Shown piece by piece: positions 4,329 through 31,943 of a stretch of DNA of 32,581 nt. The DNA comes from a virus, in IMG/VR virus record IMGVR_UViG_3300027896_000137, positions 1 to 32,581 of that record. One strand, written 5' to 3'. The notes below the pieces were generated by a model that was not told where the DNA came from, did not search any database, and saw only the letters and a program-made list of their open reading frames with translations. How positions within the stretch are numbered: position 1 is the first letter of the stretch; each line of letters opens with the position of its first letter. The position numbers and the translations under genes are program-made.

Positions 4329-6440
4329 ATGGGCTTTACATCAATGGATGATTTTGTAAATAAAGTGACTGTGAGTGGAAAGTTCTGGAGAGCTGACTAT
4401 ATAAAGAATGCTTCCAACATAGGAACAGTCGTTGCTGGCAGATGGTACGACCTTGCAGGCTTCCCAGGAGTCCCCATTCAATATATGCACGGCAACATGG
4501 TTCAGAACGGTGACTTCATGGCGACAGCTGCCCCCTGGAACGTAGGTGGCACATGGACATATTCTGCTGTTAACCATAATATGTCGCACGGTACAGCAAA
4601 TGACGGATCTGTTTTGTCTATCACGGTTAAATGCGTTCCTGGAGAGAAATACACTTTGATATGGACAAAGGGTGCTGGTGCAGGAGCAGTCATGCCCTCA
4701 CTCGGCGGCACTAATGGAACTTCACGGACAACAGCGTCCACATTATATCGTGAAGACATTATCATGGGTACAACTAATGCTCTACTCGCCTTTACTACGA
4801 CGGACGCAACGGCTTCTGTAGTTGACCTTGTGTGGTTATGCAAGTCAGCAGATTTTATGCCTTACACCTCTGAAACAGAATGTGCAACGTATCTTGGCCC
4901 GACTCCAGCAGGCGGCGAAACAAAGCATCTAATCAATATGGCTTGTTTTAATAACGCTCTACTTGGATCTCCGTCCGTTCTTGAGATAGTGGATATTATC
5001 GGCGTGTATCCATGTGTTAAGACAAGTCTTGCATCAAAACAAGTTCTGCAACATTCTACGAGATTGAGGAATGGCAACTTCTCCACAGGCGATGCTACGG
5101 GCTGGACTTGTGGTTCAAACTGGGCATACGCAGCAACCAATAAGATTCATAGAACTCAAGCGGCAGATGTGGCAACGTTATCACAGGCAAGTCTTGACAT
5201 TCTTGCTGGAGTTCCATACAGTCTAAAATTTACTATGTCTGGTTCAGCAGGAGCAGGAACCATCACTCCATCTTTGGGTGGAGCAACTGGAACTGCAAGA
5301 ACTGCTGACGGCACTTATACACAAACATTGACTCCCTCAATAACAGGTGGAACTTTGGCCTTTACTCCGACCAATAATAACATTGCAACAGACATTTCTG
5401 ATGTTAGTCTTGTTCCTTTATTCCCACGATATACTGATGGAGCTGGATTAAGATTTTTCATGTCAACTTCCTTTGACACTCTACCTACAACAGGTGCTCA
5501 GAATGTACAATGCGAATACCGCAACACGACAGGCTGGCCAACCTACACGGTGGTTGATTCTTGTGACGTGACAACTAACTGGACAGACTCGGCGAATATG
5601 ACAACAAGTGTCAACACTACAAATTTCAAATCTGGAGTAGGGGCACTGAACTTAACAAAAGACAGCGTGACGACAGCTTTGACATACACCAGCAAAACAA
5701 CCACAAGCGTTGATTTTACGGGAAAGAAACTGGGCTTCTGGTTCTATTGTGCTTCAACGACAGCATTTGCAAAACTGGCAGCCGCAGTCTCCCTGACTGT
5801 TAGATTTGGTTCTGACGCATCTAATTATTTCAGATGGGACTTTGTTAATACGGCACTTGCAACTGGATTGCTTGGGCAGACTTTGAATGGTGTAGGATGG
5901 CAGTATATAGAATGCTCGCAGCTCAATTATACTTCTAAGACAGGAACCCCTGTCCTGGCGACCTGTGCATACACTTACATAGGATTGACCGCTTCTGATG
6001 GAACAACAATTACGTGGAGTGCTGGTGATTTTGTTATTGACCAGCTTGAGGTTGTTGCAGAGGCTTCACAGCTTGGAGCTACAGTTTCCAATACAGCATC
6101 AAGTATCGCAAGTCACATACTTCACAGCGGAGTGGCTGCTGGAAACATTGGCCCGTTCCTGCCCTTGGCAGCAGGTGACGCAGGAGTGCAGAGAGTAGAG
6201 AATGTGACCTTTTCAGGAGTGAGTGCTGCTGCTGGTTCAGTCTGTATAGTGGTCTGTAAACCTCTTGCTTCAATTCCCTTGCCTTACGGGTTCATTGCAG
6301 CAGAGAGGGATTTTATGAGCCAGCTTCCGAGCCTGCCAAGAATTTATGACGGGGCTTGCCTGGGATACTTGCTATTTGATGGAGCAATCTCAGTCGCTGG
6401 CACACAGTGGATGGGAAATATAGATTTGGCATGGGGGTGA
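4329..6440 (+). CDS. Virion surface protein, scaffold with three inserted beta domains (703 residues)
   Basis: This long paralog of the 3464-4324 product carries three extra domains in separate positions of the same scaffold. Insert 1 (about 57-178) starts with VQNGDFMATAAPWNVGG. Insert 2 (about 246-358) starts with LRNGNFSTGDATGWTCGS. Both have the 'NGxF...W' entry and long beta-rich body of CBM4/9-like jelly-roll carbohydrate-binding modules, and both end near a Val-Asp-Leu/Val-Ser-Leu strand. Insert 3 (about 410-585) has VDSCDVTTNWTDSAN, a KSGVGALNLTK strand and VDFTGKKLGFWFYC, another jelly-roll-like pattern. The scaffold resumes with FPRYTDGAGLRFF, GPFLPLAAGDAGVQRV and LPSLPRIYDGACLGYL. 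Binding to host or mucosal glycans is a reasonable inference; no catalytic residues are apparent. Confidence 0.65.
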   Translation: MGFTSMDDFVNKVTVSGKFWRADYIKNASNIGTVVAGRWYDLAGFPGVPIQYMHGNMVQNGDFMATAAPWNVGGTWTYSAVNHNMSHGTANDGSVLSITVKCVPGEKYTLIWTKGAGAGAVMPSLGGTNGTSRTTASTLYREDIIMGTTNALLAFTTTDATASVVDLVWLCKSADFMPYTSETECATYLGPTPAGGETKHLINMACFNNALLGSPSVLEIVDIIGVYPCVKTSLASKQVLQHSTRLRNGNFSTGDATGWTCGSNWAYAATNKIHRTQAADVATLSQASLDILAGVPYSLKFTMSGSAGAGTITPSLGGATGTARTADGTYTQTLTPSITGGTLAFTPTNNNIATDISDVSLVPLFPRYTDGAGLRFFMSTSFDTLPTTGAQNVQCEYRNTTGWPTYTVVDSCDVTTNWTDSANMTTSVNTTNFKSGVGALNLTKDSVTTALTYTSKTTTSVDFTGKKLGFWFYCASTTAFAKLAAAVSLTVRFGSDASNYFRWDFVNTALATGLLGQTLNGVGWQYIECSQLNYTSKTGTPVLATCAYTYIGLTASDGTTITWSAGDFVIDQLEVVAEASQLGATVSNTASSIASHILHSGVAAGNIGPFLPLAAGDAGVQRVENVTFSGVSAAAGSVCIVVCKPLASIPLPYGFIAAERDFMSQLPSLPRIYDGACLGYLLFDGAISVAGTQWMGNIDLAWG

Positions 6441-6675: not shown

Positions 6676-7767
6676 ATGCTTTTACAGAATAAATCATTCT
6701 TAGCTTGCAATGGATTGAGAATATTGAGCGGAGCATCGACCAGTGTCATTGGTGTTCCCTCAAATTTTACGGGTTCCGTTGGGCTGGCTGCAAGGTCTTT
6801 GCTTGGTGGTACTATTTCTTCCAAGCTAAACCGTTACATGGGCGAGGCTACACTCTATAAAGGTGATGCAATCCCTTCCGGCTATTCACCATCCTTCGGA
6901 GCTTGGTATCCGAATGTGAAAGCTGGCGGAATGAGTTCTCGCTATCAAGTGATTGGAGCAGGCCTTATATCTGCCGCCACTCTTGCTGGCGGAATGAATA
7001 TGAGCACAGGTTCAAACATACTTGGGTTTGGCACAATCAATACAATTCCATTCATTCACATAGCTGACCATTTTGTTGTCAATCAAGCAAGTCTGACCTC
7101 TCTTGGTGAAATATCAAATTCATCTTCAATGAAGGGAGTCATAACATACAAAATCAGTGACCATATTGTTCTAACAGGCGCCGGAACAATACCTGACTTG
7201 ATGTTGAAGATTCTTGCCTGGAGCAAAGCAACTCTTACAGGCGAAGGTGATTTGGATGGGACACTACAGGCACCAATAAAGTTAGGAGCTACATTAACAG
7301 GTGATGGTGATGTAACAGGAGCATTGGTTGGAATGGTATATTTGCTGGGGAGTTTGACAGGAGTGGGAGTATTGACTCCAGACCTAAGATTTCCTGCAAA
7401 TTTGGGAGCTGAGTTAGAAGGAGAAGGATCTATTGCTGAAGATATTTTGCTGAAGGCTATTGCCTGGTGTATATCTTCTTTGATAGGGACAGGCACTGCA
7501 AGCGGTTCTTTGAGAGGAGACTCATATCTCAGTGCCACAATCACTTCTGCGGGAGATGTTGTCACTGCTGAATCATGTGCCATTGCTGTATGGGAGGCTC
7601 TTGCCGCTGCTCATAATAAACCTTCAACTATGGGAAAAGCTATGAACTCAGCAAGTTCAGCAGGAGACCCCTGGACAAGTCTATTAGAGAATTATACTGA
7701 CGATGCTACTTTTGGAGCATTTATTAAAGAGCTTTTAACCAGGTCTCAGTTTTTAACATTGAAATAG
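6676..7767 (+). CDS. Glycine-rich repeat virion protein (363 residues)
   Basis: Residues 166-296 contain six to seven tandem repeats of 20-22 residues with the core LTGxGxL: LTGAGTI, LTGEGDL, LTGDGDV, LTGVGVL, LEGEGSI, LIGTGTA, then ITSAGDV. Each core is followed by a hydrophobic strand ending in Ala/Ser-Thr. Such arrays occur in phage surface proteins and probably form a beta-solenoid or elongated stalk. The C-terminal 60 residues (VWEALAAAHNKPSTMGKAMNSASSAGDPWTSL...) match a helical ending seen in many phage structural proteins, where 'VWxxLAxxxTxxGTMGxxxNxAGxxxxPW' is typical. The first 165 residues are Gly/Ser-rich. It closes the block of surface genes before the terminase genes. Role as a fibre or decoration is inferred. 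Confidence 0.65.
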   Translation: MLLQNKSFLACNGLRILSGASTSVIGVPSNFTGSVGLAARSLLGGTISSKLNRYMGEATLYKGDAIPSGYSPSFGAWYPNVKAGGMSSRYQVIGAGLISAATLAGGMNMSTGSNILGFGTINTIPFIHIADHFVVNQASLTSLGEISNSSSMKGVITYKISDHIVLTGAGTIPDLMLKILAWSKATLTGEGDLDGTLQAPIKLGATLTGDGDVTGALVGMVYLLGSLTGVGVLTPDLRFPANLGAELEGEGSIAEDILLKAIAWCISSLIGTGTASGSLRGDSYLSATITSAGDVVTAESCAIAVWEALAAAHNKPSTMGKAMNSASSAGDPWTSLLENYTDDATFGAFIKELLTRSQFLTLK

Positions 7768-7776
7768 GATGAGGTT

Positions 7777-8475
7777 ATGGAAATTATAAAGAGAAAAAAG
7801 AAAGCGAAAGAGCCTGAAGATGTCAAAGTTCCTCCCCGTCGAAGCAAGAAAGTAATTGACGAAGAGGCTTCAAAGGTGTTAGCGAAAGAAACTGTTAAAG
7901 CTGAAGGGGAAGGAACAGAAACGGTTCAAGAATTAACGAATCGTCTTTACGGTCCTGGTAATGAGATAGGACCTTTGACTCTTGCTCCATGGGAGAGGGC
8001 ATCTAATTATAGAGTGCCTGCAACTAAGAAAGTTTTCGGGAAGATTACTTATGCTGAAGTTGAGGAAGCTGTGCGAAACTCGCACGGCTTGATTACAACT
8101 GTAGCTCGACAACTGAAGCTTTCCGTGTACTTTGTCAAGCAGATATTCGCTAAATATAAGACATTGAAGCAGGAATTTGACGAGTTTCGAGAGTTGATGC
8201 TTGATGAAATGGAAGGCGAGCTTATGAAGAAGATTCGTAAGGGAGATACTACGGCAACAATCTTCGCTCTCAAATGTCTTGGGAAGAACAGGGGATATAT
8301 TGAACAAGCTCAAGGCTCTCAGAAGAAAGGCGGAGTAAATATCAAGTTCAAAAAGGCTACGGATGATGATGTTAAGAAGGTTAAGAAAGCTGATGCTAAA
8401 GGGGTGAAGGCGTCAGAATCTAAAAATGTCATAGATTTCAAGAAGGCGGTTAGTGATGGGTCGCAAGAGTCGTGA
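7777..8475 (+). CDS. terS: Terminase small subunit
   Basis: The 232-residue protein fits the small terminase, which recognises phage DNA and brings it to the packaging motor. After a basic, disordered N-terminus (1-85), residues about 95-125 form a helix-turn-helix (EEAVRNSHGLITTVARQLKLSVYFVKQIF) followed by KYKTLKQEFDEFRELML. A helical segment, EGELMKKIRKGDTTATIFALKCLGKNRGY (about 147-175), is the usual hallmark: 'xxxLxxxIxxGDxxAxxFxLKxxGxxRGY'. The C-terminus is Lys-rich and disordered. It overlaps the large subunit gene by about 20 bases, the standard TerS-TerL arrangement. Identification rests on the HTH, the GD...LK..G..RGY motif and this position. Confidence 0.85.
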   Translation: MEIIKRKKKAKEPEDVKVPPRRSKKVIDEEASKVLAKETVKAEGEGTETVQELTNRLYGPGNEIGPLTLAPWERASNYRVPATKKVFGKITYAEVEEAVRNSHGLITTVARQLKLSVYFVKQIFAKYKTLKQEFDEFRELMLDEMEGELMKKIRKGDTTATIFALKCLGKNRGYIEQAQGSQKKGGVNIKFKKATDDDVKKVKKADAKGVKASESKNVIDFKKAVSDGSQES

Positions 8476-22714: not shown

Positions 22715-23328
22715 GAACTTTTCCTATTAGTCTAATCTTGCAGAAAAATCTACTGTCACAAACAGACCCGTGGTTAATACTTCTTGATATAGTCGTTCCT
22801 GACGGGACAATTCTCAGACTTGTTAGAAATACAGAAGACATCACTTTCCGAGGCAATATTTATACGGCTTTTCCTTTTGAAGTAGATGCAGTCCAACAGC
22901 AGTCTCAAGGTCAGATTCCTTCTGTCTCTCTAAAAGTAAATAATATTACAAGGGAGATTCAAGCGTATGTTGAAGATTTTGAAGGGTTCATAGGAAGTAC
23001 TGTGACGATGTATGTTGTGAATGCGAAGTATCTTTTAGAGGATTATACAGATTTGACATTTGAATTTGAAATTCTTGGTTGTGGAGCAGATTCTAATTTA
23101 GTGACATTTACTCTTGGTGCTCCTAATCCTTTAATCAGAAGATTTCCCCTTCACAGATATTTGTCAAATCATTGCAGATTTGTTGGCAGATTCAAAGGTG
23201 CCCGTTGCGGTTATACAGGAGAAGACACTGATTGTCAGGGAACATTAGTTGCGTGCCAAGTCAAGGGAAACGGGGCGAGATTTGGCGGATTTCCTGGTAT
23301 TGGTGCAGGGGGAATGAGAATTGTTTAG
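22711..23328 (+). CDS. Minor tail protein, gpL-like, probable Fe-S protein
   Basis: Residues 1-140 look like the DUF1833-type tail domain: PWLILLDIVVPDGTILRLVRNTEDITFRGNIYTAFPFEVD, then VSLKVNNITREIQAYVE. The C-terminal part (145-200) carries four cysteines: C155, C166, C175 and C182, in CRFVGRFKGARCGYTGEDTDC and VAC. Lambda gpL has a [4Fe-4S] cluster in an equivalent C-terminal domain held by four cysteines, and the spacing here (10, 8 and 6 residues between) is of a similar kind. A closing RFGGFPGI is also characteristic. The protein sits at the tail tip, and the next gene starts inside its last codons. Confidence 0.85.
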   Translation: MRTFPISLILQKNLLSQTDPWLILLDIVVPDGTILRLVRNTEDITFRGNIYTAFPFEVDAVQQQSQGQIPSVSLKVNNITREIQAYVEDFEGFIGSTVTMYVVNAKYLLEDYTDLTFEFEILGCGADSNLVTFTLGAPNPLIRRFPLHRYLSNHCRFVGRFKGARCGYTGEDTDCQGTLVACQVKGNGARFGGFPGIGAGGMRIV

Positions 23329-23704
23329 TGACCTTCTTGGCGTGAAGTGGTTAAAAGGCGGTAGAGACTTGAAAGGTCTTGACTGTTATGGTCTTGCTAT
23401 GATTGCTAAGAAGCGACTTGAAGGAATTGATTTGCCTGAATATTCAACCCCTGATGACGATGCAACATTTGTAAATATGATTTTGAAAGAAGTGGATATA
23501 GCAGAGAAAATAGAAGTCCCTGTTTCTGGATGTTTTGTTTTGTTTGCAGTAGGTGGTCCTTACAAACTTCACATAGGCGTGATGGTAGACAACGACAAGT
23601 TCATACATATTCTTAGGAATAATACTGTCAGCATTGAAAGAATAAGTCATCCTTTCTGGAAAAGCAAAGTAAAAGGACTATATAAGTGGAACAACAGACA
23701 ATAA
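23321..23704 (+). CDS. NlpC/P60 tail-tip peptidase, gpK-like
   Basis: The 127-residue protein is a compact cysteine peptidase domain. GLDCYGLA gives the catalytic Cys22, and KLHIGVMVDNDKFIHI gives the catalytic His84 with His96 a candidate third residue. The translation start is TTG 23321, eight bases after GGGGG (23308-23312) and inside the preceding gene; GTG 23342 is an alternative. In lambda the corresponding gpK carries the peptidase after a JAB domain, which is absent here. Cutting of peptidoglycan cross-links during infection or tip assembly is the likely role. It overlaps the gpJ-like gene by 19 bases. Confidence 0.85.
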   Translation: MFSDLLGVKWLKGGRDLKGLDCYGLAMIAKKRLEGIDLPEYSTPDDDATFVNMILKEVDIAEKIEVPVSGCFVLFAVGGPYKLHIGVMVDNDKFIHILRNNTVSIERISHPFWKSKVKGLYKWNNRQ

Positions 23705-26700
23705 CGATAGTTAAAGTAAAGAATCCTTTTGACAGATATGATAGGGAATTTGAAATTGTTCCTTATGCCGGACTTTCTCTGTCTCAAATAAAAGACTTAT
23801 CGTTTCCTTTCGGAGAAGAAATTGTAACTTCTGTCAATGGTCAAATAGTTCCTGTTGAGCATCTTCCAACAGCTTATCTTAGTAAAGGAGATTGTGTAAC
23901 TTTCGTTCCTGTTATGGAAGGAGGAGACACGCTAAGAACTCTTGCTTTTATAGCTCTGGCTGTGGCTATAATGGTTGCTGCTCCATATGCGGGATTTGCC
24001 CTTCAAGGTGCTATGATTGGTATGGGATTCGGTGAAGCAGCGGTATTAGCAGGATATTATGTAGGAGCCGCAGTTTTTTCTATGGCGGCGATGGCTGTAG
24101 GAGGAATGCTTATCAATGCGGTTCTTCCTCCTCCTTCCATTGAACCTGCAGATGCCGGTTCTGTAGGCTCATTTGACCAATCACAAACATATAGTTGGAG
24201 TCCTAAATCCATTCAACAGCAAGGTACTGTCATTCCTAAGTGTTATGGAATATTCAAATTGTTTGGAAATGTGTTGTCTTCTTACTCAGAAACTAAAAAC
24301 GATAAAGACAATTACATCAATGTTTTATTGGGAATATGTCAAGGACCAATAAGTAGGATGTATGATTTCTATATAAACAAACAGCCCATTTATAACTATA
24401 CAGGCATTGAAACTTATGCTCGTTATGGTTTAATATCTCAGACAGTCATTCCTAATTTCAATGATACCAAAACTGAATATAATATGTCGAGAAAAATTGC
24501 TTACGGCTCCCCTGTAGTTTATACAACTGTAGGCAATTCTTTCAACGGTCTTGAAGTGGATGTTATATGCCCAAAAGGTTTGTATCATCAGAATGACCAA
24601 GGAGGATTAAGCAGTCATTCTCTCACAATTACTATTGAATATCGCAAGTCAGGGGTAGGAACTTATACAGCTATTGCTTTCGGTGCAGGCTTTGTGAATC
24701 AAACGTCTCCTACAGGGTATTGGTCAAGGGGATGGCACACGTTTGATTATGTAAATGTGGGTTGGAAAGAAGTTGAAGCAGGAAGTCCTATTGCTAAAGA
24801 CCATTATGAAGGGGAACCTGGAGTACCTGACGGGTGTTGGCATTGGATTGAAGGAAGTGTTCCTTATACTTTTGCTTCTAATGAAATAAGTTATTTGACT
24901 ATGACTGGTAATGTTACTTCTTCTATTAAAAGAACTTTGACCATATCTAATCTCACTCAAGGTGCTTATGACATTCGGGTTTCTAAGATAACTGCGGATG
25001 TAACAGACATAAAATATGGTGATGATGTTTATCTCTCTACAGTGAGGGAAGTTGTATATGAAGATTTTCAATATCCAAGCGTTGCTCTTGTAGGTGCGAG
25101 AGCGTTAGCTTCTAATCAGCTTTCAGGTTCGTTTGAGTTCTCTTGCATGGTTGAAGGGGCTTTAATCAGAGTTTACAGAGCTGATGAGGTTTTAGGTTCT
25201 GATGATAAAAATTACAGATGTATTTTAGACCATGTTTTAAGTATAGATACTATGCCTATTACAGGGGTTAATTGGGCTACTTATTGGGAGCAGAAAGGAC
25301 ACAGTGCTTTATTAGGATACGGGAAATCTATTGGAAATGATTGTTCTGCCACACCTTCTTTCAGAGTTGAGTTCTCGAACAATCCAGCATGGGTTTGTTA
25401 TGATGCTTTGACTCAACCAATAATTCTTGATGATTTATCAATAGAAGATTATGAAGGCATTAATCCTTCAAGAATTGTTGAAGCAACTTTTGTAACATGG
25501 GCTGATTATTGCGACACGTTAGTTCCTGATGGTGTTGGTGGAACTGAAAGAAGAATTACTTTCAATGGAGTCTTCGACTCTCAATCTACTTTGTGGGACG
25601 CTATCGGTCAGGTTTGTAAGATGTCGAGAGCATTACCTGTGTTCAGCGGATTTGATATATCAGTAGTAGTTGACCAGCAAGCAACACCTTGTTATCTGTT
25701 TTCATCAGGCAATGTTATGGTTGATTCTTTCAAAGAAACATTTATGACTTTGCAAGATAGAGCAGGAGAGGTAGAAATTCAATACACTAACAGCGAGAAT
25801 GATTATGAGAGGGACACTGTTTCTTACTTTGATCCTGAACTTGATAGACCTGATAACAAAGTAAGTATTCAGGCTATAGGTATTTCACATGCTAATATGG
25901 CGTGGAGACTCGCTAAATACTACACAGCTTGTAATTATTTCCAGAGAAGAACAATAACTTTTGATGTTGATGTAGAAGCCATCCGTTGTACTGTCGGAGA
26001 TGTTGTAAATTTTGCTCATAGCGTTCCAAGATGGGGAATATACGATGGGCGTATCGTTTCCGCAACTGCTAATACAGTGACATTAGACCAAGATATTGAA
26101 TTAATAGCGGGAAAACAGTATTCTATTATACTCAGACTGTTTGATGATACGGTTGTGTCAAAAACCGTTGTTAATCCGCCGGGAGTTTGGAATCAACTTT
26201 ACATTTCGGGAGTATTTACAACAATCCCTGTGCAATATGATGTTTATGTAGTTGGTGAGTTGGGTTTAGAGACTAAACCGTTTAGGATAATAGGTTTGTC
26301 AAGGACTGGAGAGAATATTATTACTGTCTCTGCCATTGAATACAATGATTCCATGTATGTTGTCGATTATTGTGATCCTCCTCTCTTGAAAAAGAATTAT
26401 TCCATTCTAACACCTATGCCTAATATAACAAATCTGTCAGCAAAAGAGAGAATGCAGAAATGGTTAGATGGTACTATTGAAACGAGCATTGATATTTCTT
26501 TTACTGTTCCTAATTCTTACTTTTGGGACCACGCAGAGATTTGGTCTGATGTTGGAGCAGGTTGGAAATATGAAGGCAGGTCTCTTGACGGTACATACAT
26601 ACTACGCAATGCTTTGGAAGGTTCTGATTATTTAATAGCAGCGATAGGTGTGTCTAAATTAGGAGTTAAAAAAACTATTGCCCAATCTCCTCAAACATCT

Positions 26701-28464
26701 CTCCATATTTTTGGGAAGACTTCCCCTCCAGAAAATATAACAGAGATATGGTGTGAACCATCAGCAGGAGGATTGAAACTAACATGGACTCCTGTAAGTG
26801 ATATAGATATTTATTATTATAGAGTGAAATGGTCGAGCGACCTTGTCAATGGGTCATGGGCTCACTCTTTTGACGTTGCAACGTCTTTGACTAATACGGT
26901 AACAATACCTGCGGCGAGAGACGGTATTTACTTTGTAAAAGCGGTTGATACAACTGCTCACGAAAGTCTTGTTGCTATCTCTGTTGAAACGACCATTCCT
27001 TCAGTTCTTTCATGGCATACTTATCAGGAAGATGAAGAAAGTCCTTTATGGTTGGGTGAGAAAATCGAGTGCATAGTGCGAGACACAACTTTAATTCCTA
27101 ATTCAAGAGCAAAATGGGATGAAATTGCTGATTTTGATGTTTCTCTTGATATTGATTTAGGAGGAGATGTTTATTCAGGGGGAACTTACACAACAGGAGT
27201 GTTTGATTTTTTAGCAATTCAATCAGTGAGGCTTTCTTTCACCACTGTTTTTAATAATGTCTGCATGGCAGCTACTTTTGATGAAATAGTTGATTTAGAT
27301 AGTACAGTTCCTTTTGACACTGAAGACAATGAATCAGCATGGGTCACCCCTCAATTATGTTTGTCTCAAGATGGTATTACCTTTGGCACTTGGAGGAATT
27401 TCATTGCAGGGGATTACACTTGTAGAGCAGCAAAATTCAGACTTCTTCTTCAGACATCAGATACAAGGAATTATTCAGCTATAAGTTCTTGGAAAATTTA
27501 CTTTGACTTTCCAGGGAGGTCTGAATCAGGGGCAGACATAGTTTGTCCTACGACAGGCCTTGATATAACTTATAATGCTCCTTTTATGGTTATGCCTAAG
27601 ATAGGAGTGACAGTTCAGAACTCTCAGCCTGGAGACCGTTTCATTGTGTATGGAAAGAAACTTGATGGATTCAGAATGATGGTTATGGATAATTCTGCTG
27701 TCTCTAATTTTACAACTCTTTCTCAAGGAAATAAAAATACTTATGGTGTTGGGTCTGATATTTTTGGTGATGTTCATTTAGGAGTTTATAGTGGTCAAAT
27801 TTACAAGCAATCCAATTCGCAAGGCAACTTTATTTCTATAGGACAGCCCCCAAGATTGTGGAGACAATTTGCTCCTCATCCTAATGGAAGTCTTTTCGCT
27901 GCTGTTTACAGCGGTCAAATTTATAGAAAACCTCCAGGTTCTTCTAATTTTAGCGGTCAAGGTCAGACAGATAGAAGTTACATAGGAATTGCTATCAACT
28001 CTAAGGGAGATTTGTATGCTTCTGTAGATTCAGGTGATATTTACAGGCAAAGAAGCGGACAGGCTTCTTTTGAAGCAATGGGACAAGGCAGTAAGGCATG
28101 GAGGGAAATGTGTTGTGCCCCTAATGATGATATTTATGTCTGTGTGTACAATGGTGACATTTATAAAATGATGAGCGGGCAAGTTAATTTTACAGGCCAA
28201 GCTCAAACTGTTAGAAATTATTATGGCATGGCAGCTTCCCCTGCAGGAGATATTTATTGTAGTGTCTATGGAGGGAATATTTACAAGCAAACAGCAGGAG
28301 CAGGAACTTTTAATTCTTTGTCTCAGACAATAAGGAATTGGTCAGGTATGGCAATCGTTCCTAACGGGGATATTTATTGCTGTGAATATGGAGGGGATAT
28401 TTATAGGTCCACTTTAGGTGTGGGTGTACAAAGAATTGTTGACTGGACAGCGGTAGGGCATTAG
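23686..28464 (+). CDS. Tail-tip host-specificity protein, gpI-gpJ fusion with propeller-like C-terminus
   Basis: The 1592-residue protein begins at GTG 23686 (AAAAGGA at 23671-23677). Residues 1-80 look like a gpI-type beta-grasp domain (VTSVNGQIVPVEHLPTAYL, LSKGDCVTFVPVMEGG). A hydrophobic, gpI-like segment follows (about 84-150). From 152 on it is gpJ-like: YSWSPKSIQQQGTVIPKCYGIFKLFGNV, a central tail-tip core and a fibronectin III-like domain near 1010-1105 (PENITEIWCEPSAGGLKLTW). Residues 1345-1584 are six exact 40-residue repeats with core 'GDIYxxVYxGxIYK'. In lambda, gpJ's C-terminus binds the receptor. The repeats resemble lectin or tectonin beta-propellers, so surface-glycan binding is likely. 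Six units fit a six-bladed ring. Confidence 0.88.
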   Translation: MEQQTITIVKVKNPFDRYDREFEIVPYAGLSLSQIKDLSFPFGEEIVTSVNGQIVPVEHLPTAYLSKGDCVTFVPVMEGGDTLRTLAFIALAVAIMVAAPYAGFALQGAMIGMGFGEAAVLAGYYVGAAVFSMAAMAVGGMLINAVLPPPSIEPADAGSVGSFDQSQTYSWSPKSIQQQGTVIPKCYGIFKLFGNVLSSYSETKNDKDNYINVLLGICQGPISRMYDFYINKQPIYNYTGIETYARYGLISQTVIPNFNDTKTEYNMSRKIAYGSPVVYTTVGNSFNGLEVDVICPKGLYHQNDQGGLSSHSLTITIEYRKSGVGTYTAIAFGAGFVNQTSPTGYWSRGWHTFDYVNVGWKEVEAGSPIAKDHYEGEPGVPDGCWHWIEGSVPYTFASNEISYLTMTGNVTSSIKRTLTISNLTQGAYDIRVSKITADVTDIKYGDDVYLSTVREVVYEDFQYPSVALVGARALASNQLSGSFEFSCMVEGALIRVYRADEVLGSDDKNYRCILDHVLSIDTMPITGVNWATYWEQKGHSALLGYGKSIGNDCSATPSFRVEFSNNPAWVCYDALTQPIILDDLSIEDYEGINPSRIVEATFVTWADYCDTLVPDGVGGTERRITFNGVFDSQSTLWDAIGQVCKMSRALPVFSGFDISVVVDQQATPCYLFSSGNVMVDSFKETFMTLQDRAGEVEIQYTNSENDYERDTVSYFDPELDRPDNKVSIQAIGISHANMAWRLAKYYTACNYFQRRTITFDVDVEAIRCTVGDVVNFAHSVPRWGIYDGRIVSATANTVTLDQDIELIAGKQYSIILRLFDDTVVSKTVVNPPGVWNQLYISGVFTTIPVQYDVYVVGELGLETKPFRIIGLSRTGENIITVSAIEYNDSMYVVDYCDPPLLKKNYSILTPMPNITNLSAKERMQKWLDGTIETSIDISFTVPNSYFWDHAEIWSDVGAGWKYEGRSLDGTYILRNALEGSDYLIAAIGVSKLGVKKTIAQSPQTSLHIFGKTSPPENITEIWCEPSAGGLKLTWTPVSDIDIYYYRVKWSSDLVNGSWAHSFDVATSLTNTVTIPAARDGIYFVKAVDTTAHESLVAISVETTIPSVLSWHTYQEDEESPLWLGEKIECIVRDTTLIPNSRAKWDEIADFDVSLDIDLGGDVYSGGTYTTGVFDFLAIQSVRLSFTTVFNNVCMAATFDEIVDLDSTVPFDTEDNESAWVTPQLCLSQDGITFGTWRNFIAGDYTCRAAKFRLLLQTSDTRNYSAISSWKIYFDFPGRSESGADIVCPTTGLDITYNAPFMVMPKIGVTVQNSQPGDRFIVYGKKLDGFRMMVMDNSAVSNFTTLSQGNKNTYGVGSDIFGDVHLGVYSGQIYKQSNSQGNFISIGQPPRLWRQFAPHPNGSLFAAVYSGQIYRKPPGSSNFSGQGQTDRSYIGIAINSKGDLYASVDSGDIYRQRSGQASFEAMGQGSKAWREMCCAPNDDIYVCVYNGDIYKMMSGQVNFTGQAQTVRNYYGMAASPAGDIYCSVYGGNIYKQTAGAGTFNSLSQTIRNWSGMAIVPNGDIYCCEYGGDIYRSTLGVGVQRIVDWTAVGH
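27718..28437 (+). repeat. Six in-frame 120-bp repeats (propeller blades) in the tail-tip gene
   Basis: The encoded units start at residues 1345, 1385, 1425, 1465, 1505 and 1545, each exactly 40 residues. Most share the frame xxQ-x-R-x-W/Y-x-G-M/I-A, then P-N-G-D-I-Y-C, V-Y-G-G-D-I-Y-K and a final N/T-F. The DNA copies have diverged, so the array is old and should not be unstable. The first unit is the most diverged (LSQGNKNTYGVGSD). Confidence 0.85.
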
Positions 28465-28484: not shown

Positions 28485-29438
28485 ATGAGTCAAGAAGATT
28501 TTGACATAACGAAAGCAGACGCTAATACTGGTACTTCATTTAGAGCGGCAGTGAATAATGCCTTGCAAGCGTTAGCATCTTGCAGTTCAGGAGCTTCAAC
28601 TCCTACAACTACATATCCTTTTCAATTATGGGCAGACACAACTACAAATCAAATTAAACAAAGAAACAGTACAAATGATGGTTGGAATATAATCGGTCCA
28701 ATCAATACCGATTATTTTGGTCATGCTGTTCTAATAGCTGCTAATATTTTTACTGCTACTCAAATGATAAAAGGCACTGCTCTCATGTTTCGGTTTAATG
28801 ACCGAGCAGGGGGAGGTAAAGAATGGGCAGTCCGTTCGCTTACTGGAGTTCTTCAAATATGTGAGAATACAGGAACAGAAGGAGCACCTGTTTGGACTGT
28901 TAGGGGAACTGTCAATAGCACAGGATTTTTAGGGGACGGTTCACAGTTGACAGGAATTGCAGGTTTTCCTGTTGGCGGTTGTATTGACTGGCCTACTGAA
29001 ACACCTCCTTCCGGATTTCTTGAGGAGAATGGGGCAAGTCTTTCTCGCACAACCTATTCAGCGTTATTCGCTGTTATAGGAACGATGTATGGTTTTGCAG
29101 ACAGCACTCATTTTAATCTCAGAGATTGCAGGGGAAGGTTTAAGAGATATTGGGACCACGGAATTGGCAGAGACCCTGATAGAGCTGCAAGAACTAATAG
29201 GGGAGATGGTACGACAGGTGACCATGTAGGAACGATACAAACCTGTCAATACAGTTATCATGCACATCCTCATAATCATTCTTATGATGCCAGTTTAGTA
29301 AATGCGAATTTTCAAGGAGGCCCATTTAATGCGTATCAAGGGCATAATACAGGGTCAACAAGTACAGATGCTACTGCCTCTGGCGGAAATGAAGACCGTC
29401 CTCTTAACATAAATTCTATGAGTATAATCAAATATTAG
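28485..29438 (+). CDS. Tail fibre with collar domain
   Basis: The 317-residue fibre begins with a short anchor, MSQEDFDITKADANTG...RAAVNNALQALAS (1-35), shared with the fibre at 29899. A middle part (about 60-165) holds FRFNDRAGGGKEWAVRSLTGVLQI, SQLTGI and a beta shaft. The Phage Tail Collar domain follows (about 165-230): FPVGGCIDWPTETPPSGFLEENGASLSRTTYSALFAVIGTMYG and FNLRDCRGRFKRYWDHG. The C-terminal 80 residues contain YHAHPHNHSY, a His-rich motif that can bind a metal ion at the trimer axis in known fibre tips. GGAGGAGGG precedes the start. It probably binds the tail-tip protein by the anchor and host surface by the tip. Confidence 0.85.
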   Translation: MSQEDFDITKADANTGTSFRAAVNNALQALASCSSGASTPTTTYPFQLWADTTTNQIKQRNSTNDGWNIIGPINTDYFGHAVLIAANIFTATQMIKGTALMFRFNDRAGGGKEWAVRSLTGVLQICENTGTEGAPVWTVRGTVNSTGFLGDGSQLTGIAGFPVGGCIDWPTETPPSGFLEENGASLSRTTYSALFAVIGTMYGFADSTHFNLRDCRGRFKRYWDHGIGRDPDRAARTNRGDGTTGDHVGTIQTCQYSYHAHPHNHSYDASLVNANFQGGPFNAYQGHNTGSTSTDATASGGNEDRPLNINSMSIIKY

Positions 29439-29446
29439 GAGTTTTT

Positions 29447-29899
29447 ATGCCTAAAGTTTATTGCTATCATGAAGTTACAAAAGAGTTCTTATGTGAGGAC
29501 AAAGCAAGGATTGACCCTTTAGAATCAGAACTTACCGAGACACTTGTTTGGCTTCTTCCCGCTAATTCAACTTTTATAGCACCTCCCCTTGCTTATAATC
29601 ATCCAGGATTTGTATGGTGTTTCAAAGATGGGGAATGGTTAGAAGAAGAAGACAACCGAGGACTTATTTTTAAGAAGTCAGATGCTTCCCCATCTCTGTT
29701 CAATAAACTCGGAGAAATACCTGAAGGTTATACAACCTTCATTCCCCCGTCAGAGTTTCCAAAATGGGACGGAGAAAAGTGGGTTATTGATGAAGAAAGG
29801 GTATTAAAAGAAAAAGAGGAATCAATTATTAGGGGTGAAATGGACAGGCTTCTTAGAGAACAAGTCTTTAAGGATCTTAAAGAGCGAGGGGTAATATAA
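29447..29899 (+). CDS. Tail fibre assembly chaperone (Tfa-like)
   Basis: The 150-residue protein fits the Tfa-type chaperones that help fibres fold and may stay on the tip. It opens with VYCYHEVTKEFLCEDKARIDPLESE, the usual 'Y-x-x-x-T-x-E-(f/y)-x-g-x-x-x-A-x-x-d-P-l' start, followed by PPLAYNHPGFVWCFKDGEWLEEEDNRG. A FPKWDGEKWVID repeat of the Trp motif and a long C-terminal helix, IIRGEMDRLLREQVFKDLKERGVI, complete it. The helix resembles the end of the small protein at 31647. It lies just after the collar fibre gene and its stop overlaps the next start by one base (TAATG). Confidence 0.75.
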   Translation: MPKVYCYHEVTKEFLCEDKARIDPLESELTETLVWLLPANSTFIAPPLAYNHPGFVWCFKDGEWLEEEDNRGLIFKKSDASPSLFNKLGEIPEGYTTFIPPSEFPKWDGEKWVIDEERVLKEKEESIIRGEMDRLLREQVFKDLKERGVI

Positions 29900-31650
29900 T
29901 GAGTCAGGAAGATTTTAACATAACAACGGCAGATGCTAATACTGGTATTACAATGCGAGCTGCCATAAACGCTGCTTTGCAGGCGTTGGCATCTACTAAT
30001 TCAGGACCAACTGCTCCTGTTTTCCCTTACGCCTATCAGATGTGGGCTAATACCACAAACAATGTGTTGCAAATGAGGAACGGCACAAACACTGCTTGGA
30101 TAAATATGGGTCCGCTTTCAGGTTTTTGCCCTGTTGCAAGTGCAAGTGGGACAGCGGATGTTATTGTAGCACATTATACCCCTGCTATTGTCACTTTAAC
30201 TGATAAATTGAGATTGGATTTTATAGCTTCAGGGGCTAATCTCACTACAACACCTTCTTTTCAAGCAGACAGCACTACCGCGTATGTTATCACAAAGAAA
30301 GGCGGTTCAGCTCTTGATATAGCTGACATTCCGGCGGCAGGGGCAAGATGTGAATTATCATTAGATTTGCCTAATACAAGATATGAATTAATGAACCCTG
30401 CTGTCAGTGCAGGCGGAGGAGGAGCTACCAAAGCAGTAATACAAGCTTCTCACGGATTTGTTATAGGAGATATTCTGTATTATACAGGAGCTGCTTATGC
30501 TAAAGCTAAAGCAGACGCAATAGCTACCGCTGAAGTCGTAGGAATTGTTTCTGCCTCGACACCTCCAAATAATTTCACTCTTTTGAATGTGGGATATGTT
30601 TCTTCTTTAACAGGATTAACCGCAGGAACAGTATACTTCCTGTCCGACACAGTTGCCGGAGCCTTAACTGCAACAGAACCAACAATAGAAGGCCATGTAT
30701 CAAAACCTCTATTAGTTGCAGACAGCACAACCTCTGGATATTTCTTCAATATGCGTGGTGCCGTAGTTGGCGGAGGCTCAACTGCCTATGTTAATACCTT
30801 TGACAACACTTCCTTAGTTGCTGGTGTGCTTACAGTCACCCACAACTTCGGGCATCAATATCCAAATCAGCCTGTGGTTATAGACAATGCGGGCAAAGTA
30901 GTTATTCCAGACGAAGTTACATACACTACAATAAATGCTCTGACTATAGACTTGTCGTCTTACGGAGTTATCTCAGGAACATGGCGAGTAGTGGTTTTAG
31001 ATAGCGGGGCAACAACGACCACAACTCCCTTCGCCACCGCAGCAGAAATCATCACAGGCACAGAAGCGGCTAAAGCTATTGCACCTGACCAGTTAAGGGC
31101 ATCGGAAGCAAGTGCTGCTGAAATAACTACAGGTACTGCCGTTAAATTAATAACAGCCGACCAGTTAAAAACAGCAGGAATAGGTGCCAATGTCCTCGTT
31201 CAGCATGTCTATACTGAAACGGGTAGTATGGCATATGGCTCAACAGCGTTTGTTTATGATGATACGATACCAGAGAAAACAGAAGGAAATGAGTTTATGA
31301 CTCTGGCAATTACTCCTACGTCTGCGACAAATAAGTTAATTATAGATGTTGTCATATCAGGTACAAGGTCAGCGGCAACTGTGGCTCTGATTGTTGCTCT
31401 GTTTCAGGATGCTGTGACAAATGCTCTTGCGACTTCTTTTTATTATACGGGTATTGGAGGTGATACGAATGCAGGGAACACCATATGTTTGCGGCACATA
31501 ATGGTCGCAGGGACTACATCAGCAACAACATTCAAGGTCAGAGCAGGGGCTGCTGGAATATCAGATTTTACCTTTAATGGTTCTGGGGCAGCCAGGAAGT
31601 TTGGTGGGGCTTTTGCTTCGTCTATTTCAATTCAGGAGATAAAAGTATGA
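29899..31650 (+). CDS. Second tail fibre (583 residues) with shared anchor
   Basis: The N-terminus MSQEDFNITTADANTG...RAAINAALQALAS matches the anchor of the collar fibre at 28485. The rest is made of modules seen in many phage fibres: a beta domain at about 175-295 (QASHGFVIGDILYYTGAAYAKAKADA, TAGTVYFLSD, GHVSKPLLVADS), a strand unit LTVTHNFGHQYPNQPVVIDNAGKVVIPDEV, then two 'ITADQL'-type repeats (AEIITGTEAAKAIAPDQL and AEITTGTAVKLITADQL). The C-terminal jelly-roll has DDTIPEKTEGNEFMTLAITPTSATNKLIIDVV, then TTFKVRAG and FGGAFASSISIQEIKV, a very widespread fibre tip. It lacks a collar domain, so it targets the host differently from the first fibre. Confidence 0.83.
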   Translation: MSQEDFNITTADANTGITMRAAINAALQALASTNSGPTAPVFPYAYQMWANTTNNVLQMRNGTNTAWINMGPLSGFCPVASASGTADVIVAHYTPAIVTLTDKLRLDFIASGANLTTTPSFQADSTTAYVITKKGGSALDIADIPAAGARCELSLDLPNTRYELMNPAVSAGGGGATKAVIQASHGFVIGDILYYTGAAYAKAKADAIATAEVVGIVSASTPPNNFTLLNVGYVSSLTGLTAGTVYFLSDTVAGALTATEPTIEGHVSKPLLVADSTTSGYFFNMRGAVVGGGSTAYVNTFDNTSLVAGVLTVTHNFGHQYPNQPVVIDNAGKVVIPDEVTYTTINALTIDLSSYGVISGTWRVVVLDSGATTTTTPFATAAEIITGTEAAKAIAPDQLRASEASAAEITTGTAVKLITADQLKTAGIGANVLVQHVYTETGSMAYGSTAFVYDDTIPEKTEGNEFMTLAITPTSATNKLIIDVVISGTRSAATVALIVALFQDAVTNALATSFYYTGIGGDTNAGNTICLRHIMVAGTTSATTFKVRAGAAGISDFTFNGSGAARKFGGAFASSISIQEIKV

Positions 31651-31943
31651 CAGGTCAGGAATATTTATACTGCATTAAGAAATTGAATCCGCAAGCCCAT
31701 GTGGTTATATGGGTAAATGAGGATGGTACTTTAAGACCTGCATGGGACGATGCTCATGTAGGGATAAAGCCGACAGAAGATGATTGTCAAGTGGTCTTAA
31801 CAGAGGTGCAAGAGGATTTGGCGAGAGTTGCCAAAGATGCAGAGGTTGAAACCTTGATTCAAAGCAAGATACGTGAACAGGCAATCACGGCATTGCAGTC
31901 GGAGGGGAAGTTGGATACAAAAGGAATGATGATTAAGGAGTAG
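31647..31943 (+). CDS. Small Tfa-like accessory protein (98 residues)
   Basis: The 98-residue protein follows the second fibre and overlaps its stop by ATGA. It has a compact N-terminal domain with aromatic strands (YLYCIKKLNPQAHVVIWVNEDGTLRPAWDDAHVGIKP) and a C-terminal helix, ETLIQSKIREQAITALQSEGKL. The helix resembles the end of the Tfa-like gene at 29447 and that of other fibre chaperones. Each of the two complete fibre genes is therefore followed by a small gene with this kind of tail, which argues for a chaperone function. Identity is inferred by position and helix only. Confidence 0.6.
   Translation: MTGQEYLYCIKKLNPQAHVVIWVNEDGTLRPAWDDAHVGIKPTEDDCQVVLTEVQEDLARVAKDAEVETLIQSKIREQAITALQSEGKLDTKGMMIKE

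Follow-up and report, generated by a model that had tools for sequence, protein, structure and literature searches.

A gpJ-type tail-tip protein appears to have acquired a complete six-bladed β-propeller of the NHL/Pizza-like kind in a loop of its C-terminal domain, and the propellers would serve as receptor-binding heads of the tail; we put the probability of this reading as a whole at roughly 0.65. The sequence analysed, referred to here as the window, is a 32,581-base IMG/VR virus record. The novelty lies in the apparent insertion of a member of an unnamed NHL-like propeller family into a gpJ tip, propellers in phage tails being already known, and no comparable propeller-bearing gpJ turned up in the open-access literature that we searched.

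The gpJ-type protein and its repeat array

The window carries genes for terminase, portal, major head and tape-measure proteins together with a lambda-type tail set. The tape-measure gene and the L-like and K-like genes lie upstream of an ORF whose conserved body (PHROG 31, FNIII-A_GpJ and Phage-tail_3) identifies it as gpJ-type. The features considered here are:

23321..23704, + strand: NlpC/P60 tail assembly protein (gpK-like), directly upstream of gpJ (Pfam NLPC_P60, 1.6e-11; lambda-type tail gene order)
23686..28464, + strand: gpJ-type tail-tip (host specificity) protein, 1592 aa (PHROG 31 central tail fiber J, E 6.6e-153; Pfam FNIII-A_GpJ, 2.6e-20, and Phage-tail_3, 2.2e-16)
27349..27699, + strand: opening portion of the gpJ C-terminal domain (about residues 1222-1338), probable host of the insert (joined-flank composite with matches at the C-terminal ends of tail proteins from 14 cultured phage records; HMM over 87 proteins)
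27700..28419, + strand: predicted inserted six-bladed β-propeller (about residues 1339-1578; six 40-residue blades, AlphaFold2 pLDDT of about 90-98 in the blades, PDB match at Z 28.5)
27706..27825, + strand: blade repeat 1, in D-A-B-C register, strand D being the likely velcro strand (blade HMM; model secondary structure)
27826..27945, + strand: blade repeat 2 (blade HMM)
27946..28065, + strand: blade repeat 3 (blade HMM)
28066..28185, + strand: blade repeat 4 (blade HMM)
28186..28305, + strand: blade repeat 5 (blade HMM)
28306..28425, + strand: blade repeat 6, the final strand being strand C, GDIYRS (blade HMM)
28426..28461, + strand: probable final strand, VQRIVDWTAVGH, of the C-terminal domain that the propeller interrupts, located behind the insert (aligns with VARTFDYxAxGYG, which closes insert-free relatives)

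Base 27718 corresponds to codon 1345 in the gpJ ORF, and residues 1345-1584 consist of six ungapped units of 40 residues, just as a preliminary description of this DNA had claimed. When residues 1331-1592 were compared with themselves, 77 identities were found at a shift of 40 and 64 at a shift of 80; the highest value reached in 2000 shuffles was 34. Since the six units share just 29-55% identity with one another, the array is not an assembly duplication, and nor is it an artefact of one record's assembly, because the region is also present in a second IMG/VR contig (L001), with 99.99% identity across the 11,825 bases that span it. The repeat motifs given in the preliminary description hold as a consensus, but R-x-W/Y-x-G-M-A is strict in units 5 and 6 only. 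In blade register the array starts at about residue 1341, with strand D, and ends at about residue 1578, after strand C. Nor do the repeats reach quite to the end of gpJ: its final dozen residues would form the closing strand of the interrupted domain.

Downstream of gpJ lie two fibre proteins (28485-29438 and 29899-31650) with a common N-terminus, MSQEDFxITxADANTG. A Collar domain is present in the first, behind which lies a tail-fibre assembly gene (29447-29899); a small ORF (31647-31943) follows the second. The two proteins are possibly alternative or duplicated side fibres. Distant from the tail genes is a 146-aa ORF (2431-2871) with a match at E 6.1e-17 to Pfam Gp80 (podophage GP4 fiber I protein), and the region upstream of the terminase holds three ORFs of considerable length (4329-6440, 6676-7767 and 7777-8475) for which PHROG and Pfam gave no match.

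The relation of the array to its surroundings was examined with a composite query, in which the residues preceding the array were joined to the last residues following it. Among cultured phages, 14 records (Pelagibacter, Roseobacter and Rhizobium) have tail proteins whose C-termini match this composite; where the relative RHph_I4 has FNSSGTAVARTFDYTAVGYG in the alignment, the window gpJ has DNSAV, followed by the propeller and lastly VQRIVDWTAVGH. Both the gpJ body and the terminal domain are common to the window protein, lambda gpJ and the gpJ-type proteins of these phages, and a scan of IMG/VR gave several hundred relatives of the terminal domain. When 87 gpJ-type terminal domains were compared, 86 had the end of the protein within 15 residues of the end of the domain, although 80 of the set are IMG/VR relatives picked by contiguous match, which biases the count to insert-free proteins and makes it a description of the usual state rather than of the true frequency of inserts. 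The window gpJ is the sole carrier, with about 240 propeller residues before the last strand. Given that the joined flanks match relatives and that the other 86 domains lack the insert, the propeller is best read as having been inserted into the loop that precedes the last strand, and these alignments make it very probable that it is nested in the C-terminal gpJ domain.

The gpJ insert is known from one virus only, represented by two near-identical contigs, and tblastn of the propeller domain against 50,697 cultured phage records gave no match. The suspicion that such an architecture is rare in gpJ proteins has thus proved sound within the collections used, at one in 87 terminal domains and no domain match among the phage records. 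The same empty-site approach was applied to other carriers of related repeats. The joined flanks of L008, from another carrier class, gave no match, and for a class of fibre proteins with the flanks 'AGRTINF...NLDGG' an insert-free version was not found, every locus with its upstream flank read having a propeller, often a divergent one; the case for nesting is therefore made for gpJ only. At L048, L055, L058, L125, L133 and other loci, including Flavobacterium loci, the propeller stands between the same flanks (AGRTINF ... NLDGGTLKxKAGTGKGTG) and apparently lies inside a fibre domain.

Predicted fold and nearest known propellers

That the gpJ repeats fold as a six-bladed β-propeller is, on the strength of structure prediction, close to certain. 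A first AlphaFold2 run, on residues 1259-1592 as a single sequence, gave a model of low confidence (mean pLDDT 54) with short strands regular in every repeat, and comparison with the PDB by VIA-align matched this model to the designed propeller Pizza6 (6i37, Z 28.8) and to PknD (Z 28.2). The second run covered residues 1211-1592 and used a 38-row alignment that included six propeller relatives and 31 relatives of the C-terminal domain, the latter truncated before the last strand. It produced a closed six-bladed β-propeller at a mean pLDDT of 80.5, with the blades at about 90-98, which matches 6i37 (Z 28.5, rmsd 2.6, 240 residues), the NHL-like sensor of PknD (1rwi; Z 27.9, 238 aa) and, at Z of about 26, TRIM NHL domains. 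The six four-stranded blades in a closed ring place the insert, by prediction, among the six-bladed propellers. The array begins with strand D and finishes after strand C, the register that a velcro closure would have. Below a pLDDT of 50 are this N-terminal strand (128-136 in model numbering) and the segment leading up to the last strand (369-373), and because the model resolves these junctions poorly, the position of the last strand rests on the sequence alignment.

Structure prediction had been set beforehand as the test that could overturn the propeller reading, by returning a solenoid or a fibre. What it returned was a closed ring, and the propeller reading is upheld by both runs, by the six blades and by the match to Pizza6 and PknD at Z of about 28. 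An open solenoid is rejected on the closed-ring model together with the count of six blades across the arrays described below.

Pizza6 and the PknD sensor resemble the gpJ insert in their six four-stranded blades of about 40 residues, but identity to it is about 16% and both are un-nested and found outside phage tails. By sequence, phmmer of the window alone gave weak matches (E 0.006), all to designed Pizza proteins, and a profile of the blade family placed PknD first (E 1.5e-6) and Laccaria tectonin 2 (5fsb) second (E 6.3e-5). The NHL repeat (PF01436) scored 15.8 bits for the window, below its curated cut-off of 20, though the fold neighbours are NHL domains, and Tachylectin (PF14517) scored 20.8 bits (E 3.7e-4), below its cut-off of 29.8. 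The kinship with lectin or tectonin propellers suggested in the preliminary description is therefore retained only as weak profile similarity to tectonin 2, since the nearest neighbours by fold are NHL-type and PknD is ahead in the profile search. Tectonin and tachylectin lectins do share short repeated blades and an aromatic residue in the D-A loop with the gpJ insert, but they are absent among the 50 fold matches listed for it.

Propellers have been described elsewhere in phage tails. The nozzle proteins of SU10 and T7 contain a propeller, that of SU10 having a seven-bladed one as its core (PMC9509320), and six-bladed propeller depolymerase domains have been predicted in Klebsiella phages (PMC11448410). 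Whilst all of these are known or predicted virion-tail propellers, their place in the virion differs from that of the gpJ insert, and they are likened to it by architecture, not by blade sequence. Furthermore, the SU10 propeller hosts inserted nozzle domains, whereas in the window gpJ it is the propeller itself that appears to be inserted. The SU10 nozzle core could be taken to favour a ligand-free role in the tail, either as a structural spacer or as a module for protein contacts, as could the presence of the blade family in many kinds of tail protein. Such a role is improbable for the gpJ propeller, which sits at the far C-terminus of a protein whose relatives manage without one.

The blade family in other tail proteins

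A degenerate scan with the single gpJ sequence recovered only the near-identical contig L001, and a blade alignment was needed to find more. The alignment-based scans gave 33 and 78 IMG/VR loci and, in bacterial genomes, 19 loci, many of them in Flavobacterium and candidate-phylum assemblies; one family member searched against the 50,697 cultured phage records found two distant cyanophages only. For a census of arrays we used an HMM built from single blades, which for that reason is not tuned to any array length. It identified 86 distinct arrays, 79 of them not cut by contig ends. About six blades are present in 61 of these 79 complete arrays, the others being shorter apart from a few with 12-18, and the majority of arrays start at strand D and finish after strand C. 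The preponderance of six blades and the D-to-C register fit a closed ring with a velcro strand, not an open solenoid.

Pfam searches on 37 carriers revealed collagen-like, fibre-repeat and BACON domains and one nozzle protein, and many carriers have tail-fibre matches in PHROG. The Phage_nozzle match was absent from carriers L010, L014, L045, L111, L054, L049, L095, L106, L098, L118, L085, L092, L113, L059 and L097. Matches to SSL_N, SPASM and F-box-like were disregarded, as they span just 20-30 or so residues of the repeats.

Blades are on average 61% identical within an array, and between arrays 51% identical at the same index and 50% at different indices. Blades thus have no positional orthology between arrays, which points to repeated amplification or homogenisation within them, and from these identities the arrays seem to have been re-amplified, mostly to six. 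The array of the window gpJ, at 38% within-array identity, is among the most diverged. Three loci, L009 (4255-7425), L051 (3606-8639) and L114 (2838-7805), have 18, 12 and 18 family blades respectively, multiples of six that suggest two or three tandem propellers. L013 (4628-5305) and L015 (5662-6456) encode short, near-identical proteins that differ by one 39-residue blade (five versus six), which may represent the gain or loss of a blade, or else a collapse during assembly. Neither this family nor the nesting in gpJ had been recognised in the preliminary description. We give even odds to the broader proposal that uncultured phages share, among their tail proteins, a circulating six-bladed cassette, unnamed and repeatedly re-amplified, which was plugged into the gpJ loop as a new receptor-binding head, with the carrier domain undisturbed.

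Candidate binding face and ligand

The best-conserved blade positions (Y24, I32, Y33 and G38) look structural and are repeated in every blade. The most variable positions (13, 28 and 11) are beside the conserved R10, W12 and G30 and, from the strand order, are in or adjoin the face made up of the D-A and B-C loops, although the contrast in variability is modest once averaged over whole loops. This pattern bears on whether the propeller might be an enzyme, either degrading a surface polymer like the predicted depolymerases of Klebsiella phages or acting as a lactonase-type hydrolase. Six-bladed propeller depolymerase domains are indeed predicted in phages (PMC11448410), and lactonase propellers are found further down among the fold matches (Z of about 24), but an active site would be expected at one place rather than in every blade, and the window has no significant Pfam match to a sialidase or glycosidase. 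We therefore consider catalysis very unlikely.

Recognition of a receptor is the role we favour, and we consider it probable. With regard to the ligand, the conserved R-x-W in the D-A loop is suggestive of a sugar pocket, as a hint rather than proof, because tachylectin-2 and PVL have in this loop a GW motif, different from that of the gpJ insert, which helps to form their sugar pocket (PMC8023676). The propeller could then be a lectin head like tectonin, tachylectin-2 or PVL, with glycans bound in pockets between blades and up to 18 sites per tip, and the family-profile match to Laccaria tectonin 2 (E 6.3e-5) and the below-cut-off Tachylectin match (E 3.7e-4) are consistent with this. However, the nearest neighbour by both fold and profile is PknD/NHL rather than a lectin, and blades of different propeller families resemble one another. 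Both the lectin head and a glycan as the ligand of the gpJ propeller are possible but, on balance, less likely than not. Many NHL-type propellers bind macromolecules, and many tailed-phage tips use protein receptors. Together with the NHL-type character of the nearest neighbours, this would fit a protein-binding head with putative recognition of an outer-membrane or surface protein, which we nonetheless regard as rather unlikely.

Under the receptor-binding reading, a complete NHL/Pizza-like six-bladed propeller would have entered the loop preceding the last strand of the gpJ C-terminal domain. The ring would be closed by pairing of the N-terminal D strand with strand C of the last blade, a velcro closure that leaves the chain ends adjacent, so that the ring can sit in a loop with the host domain unbroken. 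In lambda the tail tip is formed by a gpJ trimer; in a lambda-like trimer, three propellers, one per gpJ, would project distally as receptor-binding heads. One face of each ring, made up of the D-A and B-C loops with the conserved R-x-W and its variable neighbours, would contact the surface ligand, be it glycan or protein.

Phage tips switch host by altering their distal domains, and a closed ring whose ends meet would be an ideal plug-in for a loop, leaving the surrounding domain intact. The question of the ligand is directly addressable, since the domain to be purified would have a length of only about 240-380 residues. More broadly, a re-amplified blade family that is present in many different tail proteins and nearly absent in cultured phages suggests a widespread recognition module that has been missed by isolation.
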